From: Pedobacter aquatilis
Lineage (GTDB): Bacteria; Bacteroidota; Bacteroidia; Sphingobacteriales; Sphingobacteriaceae
Length of the DNA stretch: 64,000 bases
Assembly (NCBI RefSeq): GCF_030409415.1
Contig: NZ_JAUFPW010000011.1
Location: forward strand, 124,001-188,000
Direction: 5' to 3'
In this document: piece by piece, positions 5,626 to 39,291 of the stretch
How positions within the stretch are numbered: the first letter of the stretch is position 1
Layout of the letters: each line of letters begins with the position of its first letter
Program-made: the position numbers and the translations under genes
The notes under the pieces: model-generated
The model's database searches: none
What the model was told of the DNA's origin: nothing
What the model saw: only the letters and a program-made list of their open reading frames with translations

Positions 5626-6229
5626 CGATTCATACCAAACTATAAACAAAACATCTGAAGGCATTTTTAGAGATAAGGGCAGCAAATTTATTGCTTACGC
5701 TTATCCAATACGTTCTGATGAAGAAGTTAAACCAATACTGATTGCATTGAGGAATGAGCATGCCAAAGCCAGGCATTTTTGTTACGCTTACAGATTAACA
5801 ACAGACCGTTCAGTTTTCAGAATTAATGACGATGGAGAACCATCCGTAACCGCAGGTCGGCCAATTTTAAATTGTTTATTATCAGAAGATTTAACCTATG
5901 TTTTAGTTGTTGTAGTTAGGTATTTTGGCGGTACTTTACTTGGCGTTCCAGGATTAATCAACGCCTATAAATCTGCTACCATAGAGGCACTGCAAAATGC
6001 TGAAAAATTAACTAAAACCATAAATGATGTTTACGAAGTTCATTTCGATTACCTGCAAATGAACGACGTTATGAAACTTATTAAGGATGAACACTTAGAG
6101 GTAATCAATCAGAACTTTGATATTGATTGCGTAATTAAATTTGAAATCAGAAAGGCACAATTAAATCAGGTTTTAGGAAAGTTTGATAAAATTGAAAGCA
6201 TCAAATTAAAATATTTAGAAACCTTGTAA
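5615..6229 (+). CDS. YigZ/IMPACT family protein
   Basis: A 204-residue protein of the UPF0029/IMPACT family, widespread and of unsettled role, often tied to translation or stress. The signature covers DDGEPSVTAGRPIL and VVVVRYFGGTLLGVPGL (residues about 68-115), followed by a ferredoxin-like C-terminal domain. It starts inside the last codons of the EamA gene, so the two are translationally linked. The length is typical and nothing is missing. Confidence 0.88.
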   Translation: MLFDDSYQTINKTSEGIFRDKGSKFIAYAYPIRSDEEVKPILIALRNEHAKARHFCYAYRLTTDRSVFRINDDGEPSVTAGRPILNCLLSEDLTYVLVVVVRYFGGTLLGVPGLINAYKSATIEALQNAEKLTKTINDVYEVHFDYLQMNDVMKLIKDEHLEVINQNFDIDCVIKFEIRKAQLNQVLGKFDKIESIKLKYLETL

Positions 6230-6265
6230 AGCATATTATCTAATTTTAAATTCTAACCAAATCCT

Positions 6266-7126
6266 ATGAAAATTCCAGAAAGCGACCTAATAATAAATCC
6301 TGATGGTACGATATATCACCTAAATATATTACCAGAGGATGTAGCAGATACTGTAATCACAGTTGGCGACCCTGACCGTGTTGGGGAAGTGAGCAAATAT
6401 TTTGATAGTATAGAACTCAAAAAAGGTAAACGTGAATTTATTACGCACACAGGTTTTGTAGGCAAAAAAAGAGTTACAGTGCTTTCAACAGGAATTGGAA
6501 CAGATAATATTGATATCGTTTTTAATGAACTTGATGCCTTGGTGAACATTGATTTCGAAACTAGAGAAGTTAAGAACGAATTAAAATCATTAGATATTAT
6601 TAGAGTTGGTACTTCAGGTGCTGTACAACCAGATATCCCAATGGGAACAATTTTAGCTTCTTCTTATGGTTTGGGCATGGATGCACTTATGAATTATTAC
6701 GTGCATAACTTAAATGGCGATGAGCAAAATATTTTGAATGACATAAATATTCATTTCGGGCATTTAAAGAACATCAAACCCTACTTAACAGCAGCAAGCA
6801 GTGCTCTAATAAATACAATTGGGAAAGATATGGTTAAAGGAATAACCGTTACAGCACCAGGTTTTTATGCACCTCAAGGTAGAAAAGTACGGGCAAAAAA
6901 TGCTGTACCAGATTTTGTTGGTTTAATTAATAGCTTTAAAAGCAATCAGGAAAGGATTACAAACTTGGAAATGGAAACAGCTGGAATTTATGCTTTAGCC
7001 AAAGTTTTAGGGCATAACGCACTTTCTGTTAATGCAATCTTAGCTAGTAGAGTTAAATATGAATTTAGCAACAATCCAGAAAAAATAGTTGCCAAGGCAA
7101 TTGAAACCGTATTGGAAAGGATATAA
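6266..7126 (+). CDS. Nucleoside phosphorylase, uridine phosphorylase-like
   Basis: A 286-residue PNP/UDP-family enzyme that splits a nucleoside with phosphate into base and ribose-1-phosphate for salvage. VGDPDRVGEVSKYFD, STGIGTDNIDIVFNELDAL, RVGTSGAVQPDIPMG and NLEMETAGIYALAKVLG match the phosphate-binding and nucleoside-binding segments of uridine phosphorylases. Exact base preference is not provable here. It is the last gene of the ribD run, 36 bases after YigZ. Confidence 0.85.
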   Translation: MKIPESDLIINPDGTIYHLNILPEDVADTVITVGDPDRVGEVSKYFDSIELKKGKREFITHTGFVGKKRVTVLSTGIGTDNIDIVFNELDALVNIDFETREVKNELKSLDIIRVGTSGAVQPDIPMGTILASSYGLGMDALMNYYVHNLNGDEQNILNDINIHFGHLKNIKPYLTAASSALINTIGKDMVKGITVTAPGFYAPQGRKVRAKNAVPDFVGLINSFKSNQERITNLEMETAGIYALAKVLGHNALSVNAILASRVKYEFSNNPEKIVAKAIETVLERI

Positions 7127-7156
7127 AAAATCATTTTGGAAATTTAAAATAAATTT

Positions 7157-7248
7157 TCGTCATGCTCAGCTTGACTGGGCATCTTAATACTTTAGCTTGA
7201 TTATATTTTGCAATTGCATTAAGATTCCCGTTTTTACGGGAATGACGA
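7157..7248. repeat. Intergenic inverted-repeat element
   Basis: The element is bounded by TCGTCAT (7157-7163) and ATGACGA (7242-7248). It contains an inner hairpin ATTCCCG-ttttta-CGGGAAT and the phrase CATGCTCAGCTTGACTGG. It belongs to the GTCATnCTnA class of short palindromic repeats seen elsewhere in this window (39.1 and 44.6 kb). It lies between convergent genes and may also end transcription. Confidence 0.65.
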
Positions 7249-7260
7249 TAGTTTGAGTAA

Positions 7261-7656
7261 TTATACTCTTGGAATATTTTCTTTTACCAATTCCTTTTGT
7301 TCTGTATCAAGGTAAGTGCAAGTCATCTTCGGAATATCTATAACCCATTTTTCTACTCCTGCATCAGCTGCTTGCTTGCAAAACGCAAAATAATCAGTTT
7401 CTCCTTTTTGATGAATTTTCAAAGCATGCTCTAATTTACCAGCAGATGATTCATCATTTATTATTAATTCGGGATATTCTTCTGGACTTGCTTGTTCAGT
7501 GTGGTTTTCATTATCAAAGTAAACAGATAATCCGTTAGAGACATAGACATCATTTCTAACGACACCTAAATCTTTAATTTCTTTAATAAATTGAGGGAAA
7601 TCTGCTCCAGTTTTTATTTTAGATTCTGCAGATTTTATTTCTTCTATCGTAAACAT
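7261..7656 (-). CDS. DUF1398 family protein
   Basis: A 131-residue cytoplasmic protein matching the DUF1398 pattern: FTIEEIKSAESKIKTGADFP at the start, YVSNGLSVYF in the middle and CKQAADAGVEKWVIDIPKMTC near the end. No catalytic motif is visible and the family has no assigned function. It follows galM by 7 bases on the same strand, so cotranscription with the galactose epimerase is likely. Whether it has anything to do with sugars is unknown. Confidence 0.75.
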   Translation of the reverse strand: MFTIEEIKSAESKIKTGADFPQFIKEIKDLGVVRNDVYVSNGLSVYFDNENHTEQASPEEYPELIINDESSAGKLEHALKIHQKGETDYFAFCKQAADAGVEKWVIDIPKMTCTYLDTEQKELVKENIPRV

Positions 7657-7663
7657 AAGTTAT

Positions 7664-8707
7664 TTATTTTTTTGATACTTTATAAATGGTTGTCTGCGTA
7701 TATAAATCATCCGGATACAAAATTGTTGATGGAAATTCTTCAATATTTATCGCATTTGGATGGTGTTGTGTTTCCATGCAAAAAGCTTCAAAACCATTAT
7801 AATCCTTCCCTCCTTTGGCATTTTTAACCTTTAGATATTTCGACGTATAGAAATGGGCCACAGGTTCTGTAGTGTAAATACTGAGCACTAAACCACTTTC
7901 ATCCTCAGTTGTTTTGCTTGCTAATGATAAATCACCATAATTTTTATCTAAAACATAAGTTTGATCGTAACCTTCATCTGGATTCCAATCTCTGCCAATT
8001 TCTTTTAATTGAGTAAAGTCTAAAGCAGTATTTTTAACAGGAATTGATTTTCCTGTAACACAATAGTTAGAATCCTGTTCAAGATAATTGGTTGCAAAAA
8101 TTTGTTGCTTATGTTTATCAATTTTTCCACCTTGTGGAGCTAAATTAAAATAACCATGATGGGTTAAATTTAATGCAGTAGCCTTATCGGTTTCTGCTTC
8201 GTAGCTTAAAATAAGTTCATCATTTTCTGTTAATTCAAAAGTTAAATCAACAATTAAATTTCCAGGGAAACCCTCCTCGCCATCAATGCTTTCGTATTGT
8301 AGTGTAACAGATTGGGTATCTTCATTAAAATCTATAATATCCCAAACCTTTTTATCAAAACCATCTATTCCACCATGTAAGCTATCATTCTGATTATTTT
8401 TGGCTAGATGATACGTTTCTCCATCAATTTTGAATGATGCGCCTTTTATTCTGTTTGCATATCTGCCAATCACTGCACCAATATGTGGGTTATTTTCAAG
8501 GTATTCTTCATCAAAATACTGATTAAAATCATCGAAACCTAAAACGATATCTTGCATATCGCCTTTACCATTTTTAACTATAAAATTATTAATAATGGCT
8601 CCATAATTATATATTTTAACATATGTGCCATTACTGTTGGTTAATTCAATCGCGATAACTTCTTCGCCATTAATTATATTTCCTGTGGGTATTTGCTTAA
8701 TGCTCAT
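7664..8707 (-). CDS. galM: Aldose 1-epimerase (mutarotase)
   Basis: A 347-residue enzyme that interconverts the alpha and beta anomers of galactose and feeds galactokinase. HGG with H111, the catalytic-acid histidine H184 in THHGYFNL and the base E312 in FEAFCMETQHHP are all present. It has no signal peptide, so it acts in the cytoplasm. It is divergent from galK with 75 bases between the starts. A TATGTTTG -7 box lies on the minus strand at 8739-8746 between them. Confidence 0.95.
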   Translation of the reverse strand: MSIKQIPTGNIINGEEVIAIELTNSNGTYVKIYNYGAIINNFIVKNGKGDMQDIVLGFDDFNQYFDEEYLENNPHIGAVIGRYANRIKGASFKIDGETYHLAKNNQNDSLHGGIDGFDKKVWDIIDFNEDTQSVTLQYESIDGEEGFPGNLIVDLTFELTENDELILSYEAETDKATALNLTHHGYFNLAPQGGKIDKHKQQIFATNYLEQDSNYCVTGKSIPVKNTALDFTQLKEIGRDWNPDEGYDQTYVLDKNYGDLSLASKTTEDESGLVLSIYTTEPVAHFYTSKYLKVKNAKGGKDYNGFEAFCMETQHHPNAINIEEFPSTILYPDDLYTQTTIYKVSKK

Positions 8708-13570: not shown

Positions 13571-14293
13571 TTATTCTAAATCTACATACCAGAAACCTAA
13601 AATATCTGATTCACTGGTAGATAAACTACTATCTTGACCTGTACTGAGTGGTTTGCTGTATGTTCTAAAGACTAATTCGCCAATCGTAAAACTGATTTTA
13701 TTTTTAAACAGTGGCCCATCAAAGGCAAAAGTATGAAACTCTCCATTTTCGCCGCATGAATCTATTTCTGACGGAAGGCTATTAATTAATTCATTATCTA
13801 AAACTTTTCCACAGATATATTTTAAATTCTGTTGAGCACAAACTATTATGGTTTTGTATTCTAAGGTTAAAAAATCATCTATTATAATTGAAGAGTTTAT
13901 ACTCCATAAAGGAAATATGGCTTTCATCCCTATTTCAGATAATTTTTCTTCCCTGTATTTCTTTAAATCTTCCAAAAAGATATCTCCGAATATCGAATGT
14001 GTAATCCCCTCTGCCTTGAATTTACTCATGTGAGTTTTCATAACATCATCATAGGTTTTCATGTCGGGCATTTCGGGCAAACGGATTTGGTAAAGCGGAA
14101 TACCGATGCTTTCGGCTTGTTTTATCAATAAAGATTCACGGACGCCATGCATTGAAACCCGATTATACTTTTCGGTTATTGTTGTAACTAAATATTTAAT
14201 TTCTAGCGAATTATCTTGTAATGCATAATGTAATGCTAGTGTACTGTCCTTTCCTCCACTCCAATTAAATATGCATTGTGTCTTATTCTGCAT
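13571..14293 (-). CDS. DUF71/COG2102 PP-loop ATPase, B12-salvage type
   Basis: A 240-residue protein with the PP-loop SGGKDS at 12-17, GDIFLEDLKKYRE and the family signature CGENGEFHTFAFDGPLF near the C-terminus. Eukaryotic and archaeal relatives amidate diphthine on EF2, which bacteria lack. A published comparative-genomic study of DUF71/COG2102 separated a bacterial group predicted to act in B12 salvage. The neighbourhood here (sirtuin, BtuF-like protein, BtuB, cobalamin riboswitch) places this copy in that group. Databases would probably label it diphthine-ammonia ligase, which would mislead. It overlaps the sirtuin gene by 11 bases. The reaction is not known. Confidence 0.8.
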   Translation of the reverse strand: MQNKTQCIFNWSGGKDSTLALHYALQDNSLEIKYLVTTITEKYNRVSMHGVRESLLIKQAESIGIPLYQIRLPEMPDMKTYDDVMKTHMSKFKAEGITHSIFGDIFLEDLKKYREEKLSEIGMKAIFPLWSINSSIIIDDFLTLEYKTIIVCAQQNLKYICGKVLDNELINSLPSEIDSCGENGEFHTFAFDGPLFKNKISFTIGELVFRTYSKPLSTGQDSSLSTSESDILGFWYVDLE

Positions 14294-14969
14294 TCAATAA
14301 AATATTCTTTATGTACTGCATTCCGTTTATAGCAGTTTGCTCAATGTTTATAACATTACCATAACGCTTTACATCAGGTGTTTTCGGATCGATAATATAT
14401 TTTGGTGCATCTCTAGGTACAAAGTCAATTAAACCAGCAGTGGGGTAAACAGCTAAAGAAGTTCCGATAAGCAGGAAAACATCAGCTTGTGCACATATCT
14501 CAGCAGCAACTTCTATCATTGGAACTGCTTCACCAAACCATACTACATGCGGCCTAAGTTGAGTACCAAGTTCACAAAGTTCGCCCATTTTAATTTCAGT
14601 TCCATTTATAGGATAAGTAAGCGAAGCATTTTTATCTGATTGAGCTTTTGTTATCACACCGTGAAGATGTGTGACTTTAGTTGAACCTGCCCTTTCATGT
14701 AAATCATCAATATTCTGTGTGATAATTTCAACATCGAAATCATTTTCCAATTCGGCTAAAATGGTATGCGCTAAATTTGGTTTAGCAGCTAAAACCTGTC
14801 TTCGTCTTTGATTATAAAAATCCTGAACCAAATTTGGGTTTCTTTCCCAGGCTTCGGGTGTAGCAACATCGTAAACGTTATAACCTTCCCATAAACCATC
14901 CGAATCTCGAAAAGTTCTCAATCCGCTTTCTGCACTAATTCCTGCACCTGTTAGAACAACTAATTTCAT
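14283..14969 (-). CDS. cobB: Sir2-family NAD-dependent protein deacylase (CobB-like)
   Basis: A 228-residue sirtuin. The NAD-binding GAGISAESGLRTFRD (8-22), TQNIDDLHERAG (84-95) and catalytic His103 in HLHG are intact. Y52 and R55 in FYNQRRRQ match the pair that binds acidic acyl groups in SIRT5-like sirtuins, so desuccinylation or demalonylation is plausible. The four zinc cysteines usual in the family are absent: only one Cys lies in that region (GELCELG). The gene sits between the BtuF-like and DUF71 genes with a 2-base gap and an 11-base overlap, so it is part of the B12 run. Salmonella CobB was first noted for a cobalamin-synthesis phenotype, which makes the context notable. Confidence 0.88.
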   Translation of the reverse strand: MKLVVLTGAGISAESGLRTFRDSDGLWEGYNVYDVATPEAWERNPNLVQDFYNQRRRQVLAAKPNLAHTILAELENDFDVEIITQNIDDLHERAGSTKVTHLHGVITKAQSDKNASLTYPINGTEIKMGELCELGTQLRPHVVWFGEAVPMIEVAAEICAQADVFLLIGTSLAVYPTAGLIDFVPRDAPKYIIDPKTPDVKRYGNVINIEQTAINGMQYIKNILLNAE

Positions 14970-14971
14970 AA

Positions 14972-15904
14972 TTAGCTAAAAACTTTTATTTCTGAATAGT
15001 TAATAAATTTCTGAGCAATTCTATCATCAGCGGTAAAAATCTCTGGATGAAACATGCAAGATAAAGCCTCAATACCCTCAACTAAAGTTCCGATACTTGG
15101 TTGCGTAAACATATCAAAATCGGCGATATACACCTGGTTGTTTTTTACGGCTTCAAGATTATTCCAGCCTGGTTTTGAAGTTAGTAAAGTCATTTCTTCA
15201 GCGCTGCGCTTTACATCAAAACCACAAGGTGCAACAACTAAAACTTCCGGGTTATATTTTATGATTTTATCCCATTGGGTAACAAGAGAATCACCGGCAG
15301 GATTTGATAACATATCTACACCGCCTGCTGCGGCAACTTGAAAAGGAATCCAATGTCCGCAATTGTAAATGGGTTGAATCCATTCCATTATCATTACCCG
15401 TTTTAGTGGTGCTCTATTGGCTCTTATTTTATCTAAAATGGTGTCCGTTTTCTGTTGCAAGCCAGCTAAGTATTTTAAGGCAACTTCCTCTTTATCCATC
15501 GCTTTGGCAATTGTTATTGCGCATTCAAAAACATCTTGCAGGTTATTTGGCGAAAGTGGTACAAGTTTAGGCTGCTTGCTTAACTTCATAACAGCCGTTT
15601 CGGTACAAACCGTATCGATATTACAAACCTCACATATATCTTGCGTAAATACAATATCTAGTGAAATGCTTTCTAAAAGTTCATCATCAACCCAGTATAA
15701 GCTTTTGCCTTGCGCTTTTGAGGCAGAGAAAATTCTATCGATTTCTATACTCGAATAATTTTTGCCCTCTAAAATGCAACGTACAATTTTTGGCATTTCA
15801 GCAGCTTCCTTTGGGCATTCGAAAGTAACGCCATGTAGATACTCCTGCAAGCCCATATCGTAAATCATTTTGGTTGCAGCGGGGAGAAAAGAAACAACTT
15901 TCAT
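14972..15904 (-). CDS. BtuF-like cobalamin-binding protein without signal peptide
   Basis: A 310-residue protein of the helical-backbone metal-receptor fold used by BtuF (VSFLPAATKMIYDMG at the start, EWIQPIYNCGHWIPFQ in the second lobe). I set the start at 15904, because the upstream in-frame start at 15982 lies inside a terminator hairpin and adds no plausible signal peptide. The protein would then stay in the cytoplasm, unlike classical BtuF. It carries a CX2CX5C group (C91, C94, C100, within QDICEVCNIDTVC) that could bind metal or a corrinoid. It heads the run BtuF-like / sirtuin / DUF71. No BtuC or BtuD gene is present. Cobalamin binding is inferred from family and context. Confidence 0.75.
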   Translation of the reverse strand: MKVVSFLPAATKMIYDMGLQEYLHGVTFECPKEAAEMPKIVRCILEGKNYSSIEIDRIFSASKAQGKSLYWVDDELLESISLDIVFTQDICEVCNIDTVCTETAVMKLSKQPKLVPLSPNNLQDVFECAITIAKAMDKEEVALKYLAGLQQKTDTILDKIRANRAPLKRVMIMEWIQPIYNCGHWIPFQVAAAGGVDMLSNPAGDSLVTQWDKIIKYNPEVLVVAPCGFDVKRSAEEMTLLTSKPGWNNLEAVKNNQVYIADFDMFTQPSIGTLVEGIEALSCMFHPEIFTADDRIAQKFINYSEIKVFS

Positions 15905-15958: not shown

Positions 15959-15992
15959 AAATCCTCTTTTGATAGGATTCAAAAGAGGATTT
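15959..15992 (-). terminator. Terminator between the DUF6580 and BtuF-like genes
   Basis: A perfect 14-base stem (AAATCCTCTTTTGA at 15959-15972 with TCAAAAGAGGATTT at 15979-15992) has a 6-base loop and is followed on the minus strand by TTTTTATCTTT. It would end the btuB-DUF6580 transcript just after the DUF6580 stop. Confidence 0.85.
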
Positions 15993-16013: not shown

Positions 16014-16604
16014 TTATATTTTTTGTGGTTGTAACTTTAACACCGGATATTTCGCTTTTAGAATTTCAAATGCTCCGAATAAAATCGCACCATAAATAAT
16101 TGTTCCTTCTAAAAATCTAATTTCAAATGGAATTGCCTTTTCTAAGCAAAGCCAAAAACCTGCTAAATCTTGTGTGTAAGCTGGGTTTCTAAACCAAATC
16201 GGGAAATCAGTTACAATCCAGTGGATTAAAACAATTACAAATGTTGAAGTTAGTAAATTAACTACATTCACATTCTTTAATAACACTCTGCCTACTAAAA
16301 CCATCAATGCAAAGGCAAAATAAACCACATACCAGCCTTCATATAAAAATCCACTGCTGTATTTACTGAAAATGGTGGTTGATAATACAAAATCGCTTAA
16401 AAACAAACTTAATAAAGGAAAGGCAAATGCTTTCAGATGGTCCTTAAAGTAAGCACCGCCAAATAATGCAACCGCACCAATTGATGAGAAATTAGCAAAT
16501 TTTAGTTCATCAGAATTAAAGGTTACCAGTAAACGAAATCCGGTAATTACCAAAATCATTAATAGTAAAATTGCCGTACGTGGATTAAATTTTAAGTGAG
16601 CCAT
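16014..16604 (-). CDS. DUF6580 membrane protein, candidate B12 transporter
   Basis: A 196-residue integral membrane protein with about six hydrophobic segments (roughly 11-28, 40-54, 58-76, 92-110, 116-134 and 168-184). The second segment reads FSSIGAVALFGGAYF, reminiscent of vitamin-binding S-components. There is a single cysteine, C153, in GFWLCLEKAIPFE. It lies directly behind the riboswitch-controlled BtuB-like receptor gene and is followed by a terminator, so it is the second gene of a B12-regulated unit. Size and topology resemble BtuM, a solitary S-component-like B12 transporter of other bacteria. That role is my inference; the family itself has no proven function. Confidence 0.7.
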   Translation of the reverse strand: MAHLKFNPRTAILLLMILVITGFRLLVTFNSDELKFANFSSIGAVALFGGAYFKDHLKAFAFPLLSLFLSDFVLSTTIFSKYSSGFLYEGWYVVYFAFALMVLVGRVLLKNVNVVNLLTSTFVIVLIHWIVTDFPIWFRNPAYTQDLAGFWLCLEKAIPFEIRFLEGTIIYGAILFGAFEILKAKYPVLKLQPQKI

Positions 16605-16678: not shown

Positions 16679-18541
16679 TTATCGGATATTAAAACTAACA
16701 CCTGTATTAAAATTGAAACCCATAGCATTATAACCTATGATTTCATTATATTTTTCGTTTAAGATGTTTTTAGCATCAAAGAAAATCTTAACACGTTTGT
16801 TTGCCAATGTATATTCTGCATAAGCATTTAATAATTTGTATGCTGGCAAAGTATCAACAGTATATGTAGCAAAATTACCATCCGTACGGTTACCGAAGTA
16901 ACGATAATTTGCACTAACATATAAATTATTAGTAGCCTGAACACCTGCATTTAAGCCAAAGGTATGTTTTGGTCTGCGGAATAAATAATCGGCAATTGCA
17001 TTATCAACAAAGTTGAATTCATTTCCTTCAACGTAGCCATAATAACCGTTAAAATTAAACTTACCAAATTTCACAGCCGGCTCTACTTCAAAGCCTTTTG
17101 TTTTTTGACTAACCTGATTTACATATCCTGCCGGGAAAGCATAAATAATTGCATCGGTTAAATCACGTTTGTAACCCGCAACTCTTAGGCTAAATTTATC
17201 ATCAGCAAAACTGAAATTAACACCAGCTTCGTAGTTTTGAGATTTCTCCGGTTTCAAATCTAAATTGGCACCAAACTGCCCGAACAACATATTTAAAGTA
17301 GGGATTTTAAATGCAGTTGAAACCGTACCAAATAATTTAATTTCCTTAATGATGTTGATGGCTGGCGTTACCGAATAAGTATAGTTTTCGCCATACTGTT
17401 CGTGTTTGTTATAACGACCACCAACTTCTAAATTGAAAATACTTAAATCATGCAATAACACAGAAGTGTAAGCTGCAAAAATATTTGCATTCGGACTAGC
17501 TGTACCAGATTTTAGCTTCATGTTTCTGTTATCCAAGCCAACCAATAAATCAACCTTGTCGCCAAGTTTTTGATTGTAAAACAAATCAACAATATTGATT
17601 TTTCCTTGAGAAAAGCTTGGGAAGCTGCTGTGTGCATCATTAGATGTACTTTCGTAACTATAATTCAAGGTTACTTTACCAGTTCCAAATTCATACTTAG
17701 CATTTGTTCCGACTGCAACGTTTTTTAAAATTGAATAATTACCGGCATCAACGAAAGCACCACCATCAAAGCTATAATTGCCATAATAATATCTTACAAA
17801 TGGATTCACTGTAAAGTTTTTATCTAACTGAATTCCAAAATTTGCATTTACAGCTCCCGTTCTAAAACCATCTTTATCAAATTCAGTATTATTTCCGACT
17901 GGATTTGCAGCTTCAGAAATACCATTTGTTTTGTGTTGAGTATAGTTAATGTTGTAATTGAATCCTTCTACACCGCCATTTAAACCTATCGTACCTTTGT
18001 AAGTTTCGTAAGTTCCGGCAGTTGCAACACCATAAATGGTATTACCTTTTGGCCCGCCTTTTTTAGTAATGATGTTAATTACACCCGCAACAGCATCAGA
18101 TCCATAAATAGTAGATTGACCGCCTCTTAATATCTCAATATGGTCAATTTGGTCGATAGATATTAAACGTAAGTCGAAAGCACCACCATTTCCTGATGGG
18201 TCATTTTGTACAATTCCATCAATTAAAACAACTGCATATGAACTTCCGGCTCCACGGAAAAATACCGATTTATTTAAACCTGGGTTACTACTTGAACCCG
18301 CTACAATAATTCCGGCTTGCTCGCTAATTAATTCTGGTAAGGATTTACCATGACTTTGCTCTAAAGTTTCTTTTGAAATGATGGTAACAACTTTACCAGT
18401 TTGCGACTGCTTTTGGTCGTTCTTAGTCGCAGTAATTACAACATCTTTAAGTTGCAAACTGTCTTGTGCATTAGCCGATTGACTAACTGTTAACTGAGCA
18501 AACCCCAGGCCTGCCGCAATTAAAATTCTTTTTTTGTTCAT
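16679..18541 (-). CDS. btuB: TonB-dependent cobalamin receptor, BtuB-like
   Basis: A 620-residue outer membrane receptor. The start at 18541 (MNKKRILIAAGLGF) gives a clean signal peptide ending near NAQD. Then come a TonB-box region (LKDVVITATKND), a plug domain (about 45-160, with GSSYAVVLIDGIVQND and GGQSTIYGSDAVAGVINI), and a 22-strand-type barrel. It ends with the aromatic outer-membrane signature GVSFNIR. The length near 600 fits BtuB rather than the large SusC-like receptors. The cobalamin riboswitch immediately upstream is the main reason for assigning cobalamin as the ligand. It imports corrinoids into the periplasm with energy from TonB-ExbBD, which are encoded elsewhere. Confidence 0.88.
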   Translation of the reverse strand: MNKKRILIAAGLGFAQLTVSQSANAQDSLQLKDVVITATKNDQKQSQTGKVVTIISKETLEQSHGKSLPELISEQAGIIVAGSSSNPGLNKSVFFRGAGSSYAVVLIDGIVQNDPSGNGGAFDLRLISIDQIDHIEILRGGQSTIYGSDAVAGVINIITKKGGPKGNTIYGVATAGTYETYKGTIGLNGGVEGFNYNINYTQHKTNGISEAANPVGNNTEFDKDGFRTGAVNANFGIQLDKNFTVNPFVRYYYGNYSFDGGAFVDAGNYSILKNVAVGTNAKYEFGTGKVTLNYSYESTSNDAHSSFPSFSQGKINIVDLFYNQKLGDKVDLLVGLDNRNMKLKSGTASPNANIFAAYTSVLLHDLSIFNLEVGGRYNKHEQYGENYTYSVTPAINIIKEIKLFGTVSTAFKIPTLNMLFGQFGANLDLKPEKSQNYEAGVNFSFADDKFSLRVAGYKRDLTDAIIYAFPAGYVNQVSQKTKGFEVEPAVKFGKFNFNGYYGYVEGNEFNFVDNAIADYLFRRPKHTFGLNAGVQATNNLYVSANYRYFGNRTDGNFATYTVDTLPAYKLLNAYAEYTLANKRVKIFFDAKNILNEKYNEIIGYNAMGFNFNTGVSFNIR

Positions 18542-18617
18542 TTGATTGTGAGTTTTGCCCACAGCCAACAGATTAGGAAAGGAAATGAAAATACGAAAAC
18601 GTTTAGTACCTCAATCC

Positions 18618-39011: not shown

Positions 39012-39094
39012 AGCAGCAAAGTTATAAGTTTTAGAGTTATTGTTGTGTTAGTTGTTTTATAGCCGCGATTGAAGTGGAAATACTTTTTGTTGGT

Positions 39095-39158
39095 GTCATC
39101 CTGATCTTGTCGAAGGATTGTTTGTTAGTTCCAGATGCTTCGACAGGCTCAGCATGAC
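39095..39158. repeat. 24-base imperfect inverted repeat (GTCATnCTGA type)
   Basis: The left arm 39095-39118 (GTCATCCTGATCTTGTCGAA...) and the right arm 39135-39158 (...TTCGACAGGCTCAGCATGAC) pair over 24 bases with a few mismatches and a 16-base loop. It is the same class as the elements at 7.2 and 44.6 kb. Confidence 0.75.
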
Positions 39159-39291
39159 AGAAGTTAATGGCAGTGATAACAAAAAGATTGTAACGAAAAG
39201 CGGGACTGAGCATTAATAGTTGTAATAGCCTTGCGCTTCGAAAATTAATGTTACAAATCAATCATTCTGCCTTTATCCTTGTTCTTTTTAC

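Follow-up and report, generated by a model that had tools for sequence, protein, structure and literature searches.

A DUF6580 membrane protein as a candidate solitary corrinoid permease of Pedobacter and other Bacteroidia without BtuCD

Introduction

Roughly 60% of the Bacteroidia genomes that we sampled encode a protein of the DUF6580 family, and most of them use B12 without a recognizable inner-membrane B12 transporter. How, then, does B12 cross the inner membrane of these cells? We addressed this question at a locus of Pedobacter aquatilis lying in a 64,000-nucleotide stretch of contig NZ_JAUFPW010000011.1 (positions 124,001 to 188,000), which is called the window here at its full length. 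An earlier note, made from the sequence alone, had proposed that a DUF6580 protein encoded there carries corrinoid over the inner membrane in the manner of BtuM. Our analysis indicates that DUF6580 very probably serves as the inner-membrane permease for corrinoid (B12) in this Pedobacter and in most Bacteroidia lacking BtuCD.

The fold and the mode of action are known from BtuM, while the DUF6580 family, its breadth in the Bacteroidia and its exchange with BtuCD are undescribed in the papers searched. DUF6580 was not mentioned in this literature, which took in only a minority of subscription journals and hardly any preprints, and the main text of a survey of the S-component fold mentions neither DUFs nor Bacteroidetes. 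If true, the assignment would close a large gap in models of B12 exchange in soil, aquatic and host-associated communities, allow better predictions of auxotrophy and provide a second, apparently sequence-unrelated family in which to study vitamin transport by solitary S-components without ATP or the cysteine chemistry of BtuM.

Results

The DUF6580 gene belongs to a riboswitch-controlled unit

The open reading frame, a match to PF20221 and an AlphaFold model confirmed that the gene encodes a membrane protein of 196 amino acids with six helices. Its placement between a riboswitch-controlled BtuB-like receptor and a terminator, as described in the earlier note, was likewise borne out, by an Rfam match of 115 bits and by a strong terminator hairpin with a z score of -5.7 and a folding energy of -17.9 kcal/mol (Table 1). 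Model R1 scored the same riboswitch at 166 bits. The best NCBIfam match of the receptor was TIGR01779 (TonB-B12) at 260 bits, which is below the curated cut-off of 600 bits for that family. Beyond the terminator, the same strand continues with a BtuF-like gene, a Sir2 gene and a DUF71 gene, none of which had been noted earlier. The genomes nearest to the locus were those of Pedobacter, and a plasmid search gave no match. Elsewhere in the window, at 39057-39211 (+), lies a Flavo-1 small RNA (RF01705, 54.5 bits), the match being about twice the length of the model, which suggests an insertion.

Table 1. Features of the DUF6580 locus, with positions in the window
Feature	Position	Strand	Remarks
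Cobalamin riboswitch RF00174	18640..18827	-	Leads the unit of btuB and DUF6580; E 3.3e-28, 115.4 bits (Rfam)
BtuB-like TonB-dependent outer-membrane receptor	16679..18568	-	PF00593/PF07715
Membrane protein of the DUF6580 family, candidate corrinoid permease (solitary, S-component-like)	16014..16604	-	PF20221, E 3.4e-48
Intrinsic terminator	15959..15992	-	Closes the riboswitch-btuB-DUF6580 unit; 14-pair stem, then T-run
BtuF-like protein, Peripla_BP_2 fold, without signal peptide	14972..15904	-	PF01497, E 2e-14
Sir2-family protein, adjoins the BtuF-like gene	14283..14969	-	PF02146, E 2e-43
DUF71/COG2102 ATP-pyrophosphatase, DUF71-B12 type by context	13571..14293	-	PF01902, E 9e-35

DUF6580 is the only recognized inner-membrane importer candidate of the genome

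We then considered the genome as a whole, using family searches on an assembly that is 99.5% complete. The absence of btuC, reported earlier for the window, was found to hold genome-wide, with zero matches to FecCD (PF01032). Since the genome encodes MetH, three B12-binding domains and one cobalamin adenosyltransferase, while CbiC was not found and only two cobalamin riboswitches are present, namely, the btuB-DUF6580 leader and one on metE, the cell looks like one that imports corrinoid and does not make it. DUF6580 was the only candidate for an inner-membrane importer recognized in this genome. The second riboswitch (L212, 8681-8884, minus strand) controls 6152-8485 (-), that is, metE, the B12-independent methionine synthase.

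DUF6580 has the predicted fold of S-components

The protein matched PF20221 with 164.4 bits (cut-off, 27) over residues 5-189 and positions 2-162 of the 162-position profile. An AlphaFold2 model built with 51 relatives as input (mean pLDDT, 89; pTM, 0.85) placed the membrane helices at residues 8-30, 42-52, 56-76, 91-108, 114-139 and 158-185, with a short extra helix at 147-156. Loop charges predicted both termini to be inside and loops L1, L3 and L5 to be periplasmic, as in S-components. The earlier note had called for a structural comparison with BtuM and S-components, and when the model was compared with the PDB by Foldseek, the top six matches were all S-components or BtuM (probability, 0.94-1.00), namely, the S subunit of 4huq, three chains of ThiT and two structures of BtuM. 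BtuM 8ovv had a higher TM-score than any other PDB match (0.60 on the query, 0.65 on the target). However, the E values, only 0.07-0.2, do not reach significance by themselves, and MreD and 5TMR kinases share this fold (PMC11109136). For these reasons, the modeled fold supports transport by DUF6580 without proving it. At the sequence level, a DUF6580 profile of 55 members retrieved zero PDB chains at E values up to 10, the BtuM structures being included in the search.

No EcfT was found in the Pedobacter genome and hardly any in the class

ECF S-components (ThiT 3rlb, the S subunit of 4huq and RibU 5kc0) matched the DUF6580 fold with Foldseek probabilities of 0.87-1.00, which would suit an ordinary S-component that docks on an unrecognized ECF-like or other ATPase module. 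Unlike an ECF S-component, which is energized by an ECF module, however, DUF6580 occurs in a class almost devoid of EcfT: EcfT (PF02361) gave one weak match among 247 Bacteroidia genomes and was not found in the window's genome. Moreover, the AxxxA motif of helix 1, which serves docking to EcfT, is not present in the window's protein, and only 18 of 100 members have it in a fixed register, indicating that it is not conserved. We consider such a docking partner highly unlikely. DUF6580, if it is a transporter, would thus act by itself, as has been proposed for BtuM, which occurs without an ECF module (PMC6072759).

DUF6580 and BtuC-type permeases are distributed in a complementary manner

Among the 247 genomes, 152 had DUF6580 and 96 had a strong FecCD permease (BtuC family), the latter count including siderophore permeases, as in genus g2 described below. 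The two rarely coincided (Fisher P = 6e-44): DUF6580 alone was present in 142 genomes and FecCD alone in 86, both occurred in 10, and 9 genomes had neither. The same trend was seen for taxonomic families, 45 having DUF6580, 30 FecCD and 8 both (P = 1.5e-8), although counts of families, like those of related genomes, are not fully independent. When only the 222 genomes encoding MetH were considered, DUF6580 alone was found in 129, FecCD alone in 79 and the two together in 10, while 4 genomes had neither, and at least three of these last four belong to the same families as genomes with DUF6580. Thirteen genomes harbored DUF6580 without MetH; B12-binding domains were still present in them, in two or three cases only below the family cut-off.

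Within the window's order, all 101 genomes with DUF6580 encoded B12-binding-domain proteins above the cut-off; 80 of them had no FecCD at all, and the other 21 did. Genus g2, which belongs to the window's family and lacks DUF6580 (G038, G226 and 18 others), has apparently undergone a wholesale loss of B12 use: none of its 20 genomes encoded a B12-binding-domain protein above the cut-off, and neither MetH nor a cobalamin riboswitch was found in the two members tested. FecCD was nevertheless present in 16 of these 20 genomes. Judged by these genome counts, DUF6580 appears to stand in for BtuCD in most sampled Bacteroidia genomes.

The distribution also bears on whether DUF6580 could be a non-transporting accessory of the BtuB system, such as a receptor or sensor domain or an assembly factor, as the occurrence of its fold in the non-transporters MreD and 5TMR kinases would allow. 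Some FecCD genomes without DUF6580 retain cobalamin riboswitches and MetH, an absence that fits the replacement of BtuCD better than a helper of BtuB. In addition, DUF6580 carries no fused signaling domain, and in Runella the riboswitch controls DUF6580 alone. We consider an accessory role highly unlikely.

DUF6580 is linked to B12 genes in several lineages

We next surveyed the linkage of the family to B12 genes and riboswitches, as the earlier note had proposed, and found such linkage in many other genomes. Of 100 DUF6580 loci drawn evenly from the class regardless of B12, the window included, 22 had a cobalamin riboswitch in flanks of up to 7 kb, against a chance expectation of about 0.5 loci, which we estimated from roughly one cobalamin riboswitch per 3 Mb. 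In 20 of these 22 cases the riboswitch was upstream and on the same strand. Among closer relatives, it was present at 73 of 80 loci. The riboswitch label, traced over a 118-member tree, required about nine changes, at least four of them forced by well-supported branches, showing that the linkage is not limited to one clade.

The arrangements were diverse. In Runella (L114, L171, L172, L177 and L179) and also in L194 and L196, btuB did not intervene and the riboswitch preceded DUF6580 by 26-145 bases. In L194 the order was riboswitch, DUF6580 and a btuF-like gene, followed by cobU and DUF71, and in L066 it was riboswitch, btuB, DUF6580, cobU, DUF71, cobT and cobS. BtuG-type (DUF5074) surface proteins accompanied DUF6580 in L053, L057 and L103, the second of which additionally has DUF4465; both families bind B12 and have been described in Bacteroides (PMC10404256, PMC13398666, PMC12751083).

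For 73 of the 100 class-wide members, no riboswitch or B12 gene was found within about 7 kb. That most members are not beside B12 genes could mean that DUF6580 imports another compound (another vitamin, a base of the lower ligand such as DMB or alpha-ribazole, or cobinamide only) and that B12 crosses elsewhere; the S-component fold serves many vitamins, and cobU, cobT and cobS in L066 would suit an importer of precursors too. The neighbors of the unlinked members pointed to no common other function, the largest families, thioredoxin-like proteins and carboxyl transferases, accounting for 5-6 of 141. With neither FecCD nor EcfT detected, no second inner-membrane route for B12 was found in the Pedobacter genome; the partners BtuB, BtuG and DUF4465 handle whole corrinoids, and the exchange with FecCD among MetH-positive genomes is nearly perfect. 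Another substrate is thus unlikely.

A putative cytoplasmic corrinoid-binding protein and a model for import

The BtuF-like gene is kept beside DUF6580 in about 50 loci, and its product has conserved CEVC and CGHW motifs. By Foldseek, its model matched periplasmic B12- and heme-binding proteins, including Vibrio cholerae BtuF (5ysc, E 6e-13). In almost all of these neighbors, the conserved N terminus starts with MKVVSFLPAAT, where strand 1 of the binding-protein fold already begins, and no signal peptide was found before it. Because of this, the protein is probably located in the cytoplasm and represents a candidate cytoplasmic corrinoid-binding protein, whose position beside a motor-less permease suggests that it may act in trapping. 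At the 80 relative loci, Sir2 was found on the same strand in 45 and DUF71 in 62; a DUF71-B12 subgroup has been described (PMC3541065).

The family, gene order, riboswitch, fold match, lack of FecCD and EcfT and complementary distribution are results of this analysis; the substrate, direction, mechanism and trapping we infer as follows. BtuB would bring B12 through the outer membrane, after which B12 would bind directly at the periplasmic loops of DUF6580 and be carried inward with no ATPase module involved, facilitated diffusion being the simplest means. Adenosylation would then trap it inside, possibly helped by the cytoplasmic BtuF-like protein, and when B12 is plentiful, the riboswitch would turn off both btuB and DUF6580.

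The proposed pathway resembles that of BtuCD-F of Bacteroides thetaiotaomicron (PMC10404256, PMC12751083) in its place behind BtuB/BtuG and in its riboswitch control. The proteins themselves are unrelated and, across MetH-positive genomes, mutually exclusive (both in 10/222), and unlike BtuCD-F, the DUF6580 locus has no ATPase and its BtuF-like neighbor no signal peptide. A broader scenario would be that DUF6580 replaced the ABC importer across the Bacteroidia and that, in the branch of Pedobacter and Chitinophagaceae, the former binding protein moved to the cytoplasm, there to capture corrinoid as it enters, making passive transport one-way; we put this forward only tentatively, as it is rather doubtful in its entirety.

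DUF6580 resembles BtuM except for the functional cysteine

BtuM of Thiobacillus denitrificans (PDB 8ovv and 8c7p; PMC6072759) is similar to DUF6580 in size, in its six helices and S-component fold, in its B12 gene context and in its occurrence without an ECF module. However, no sequence similarity was detected between the family profile and the PDB chains, and the contexts differ: BtuM is mainly proteobacterial and often beside btuR, whereas the partners of DUF6580 here are BtuB, BtuF-like, DUF71 and Sir2 proteins. The two also differ in their cysteines. C153, the sole cysteine of the window's protein, had been tentatively likened to the functional cysteine of BtuM, but this parallel failed, since C153 sits in predicted L5 and is found in about half of the family only, whereas the invariant Cys80 of BtuM is in L3. 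In the C153 column of the 100 class-wide members, C occurred 50 times, S 21, T 11 and A 10, and 21 members had no cysteine whatever. L127, a close Pedobacter relative with about 89% identity, has V in this column. We thus rejected a cysteine acting as a BtuM-type cobalt ligand as the general mechanism and conclude that, given the different position of C153 and the variability of its column, the cysteine chemistry of BtuM is not general in DUF6580.

The earlier reading of a BtuM-like B12 permease is hence supported by the fold, the B12 linkage and the genome-wide replacement of BtuC-type permeases, while its cysteine parallel is not. Neither of the outcomes that the earlier note had named as refuting it, an unrelated fold or a lack of B12 links in other genomes, was obtained. 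Most likely DUF6580 works like BtuM, although membership in the BtuM family is not demonstrated, since no homology turned up and the family does not conserve the defining cysteine.

R24 was the only residue invariant in all 100 members; N38, D71, Y95, G105, W137, P159, F160 and F176 were more than 90% conserved. Most members have a histidine just before the NFTP motif (residue 35 of the window's protein). The Pedobacter-type clade lacks it and instead has H128, together with W129 and D133. When we looked for a substitute ligand common to the family, only a partial exchange emerged, with 73 members having only the histidine before N38, 10 only H128, 2 both and 15 neither, a pattern in which the two histidines may possibly have been exchanged as ligands or pocket residues.
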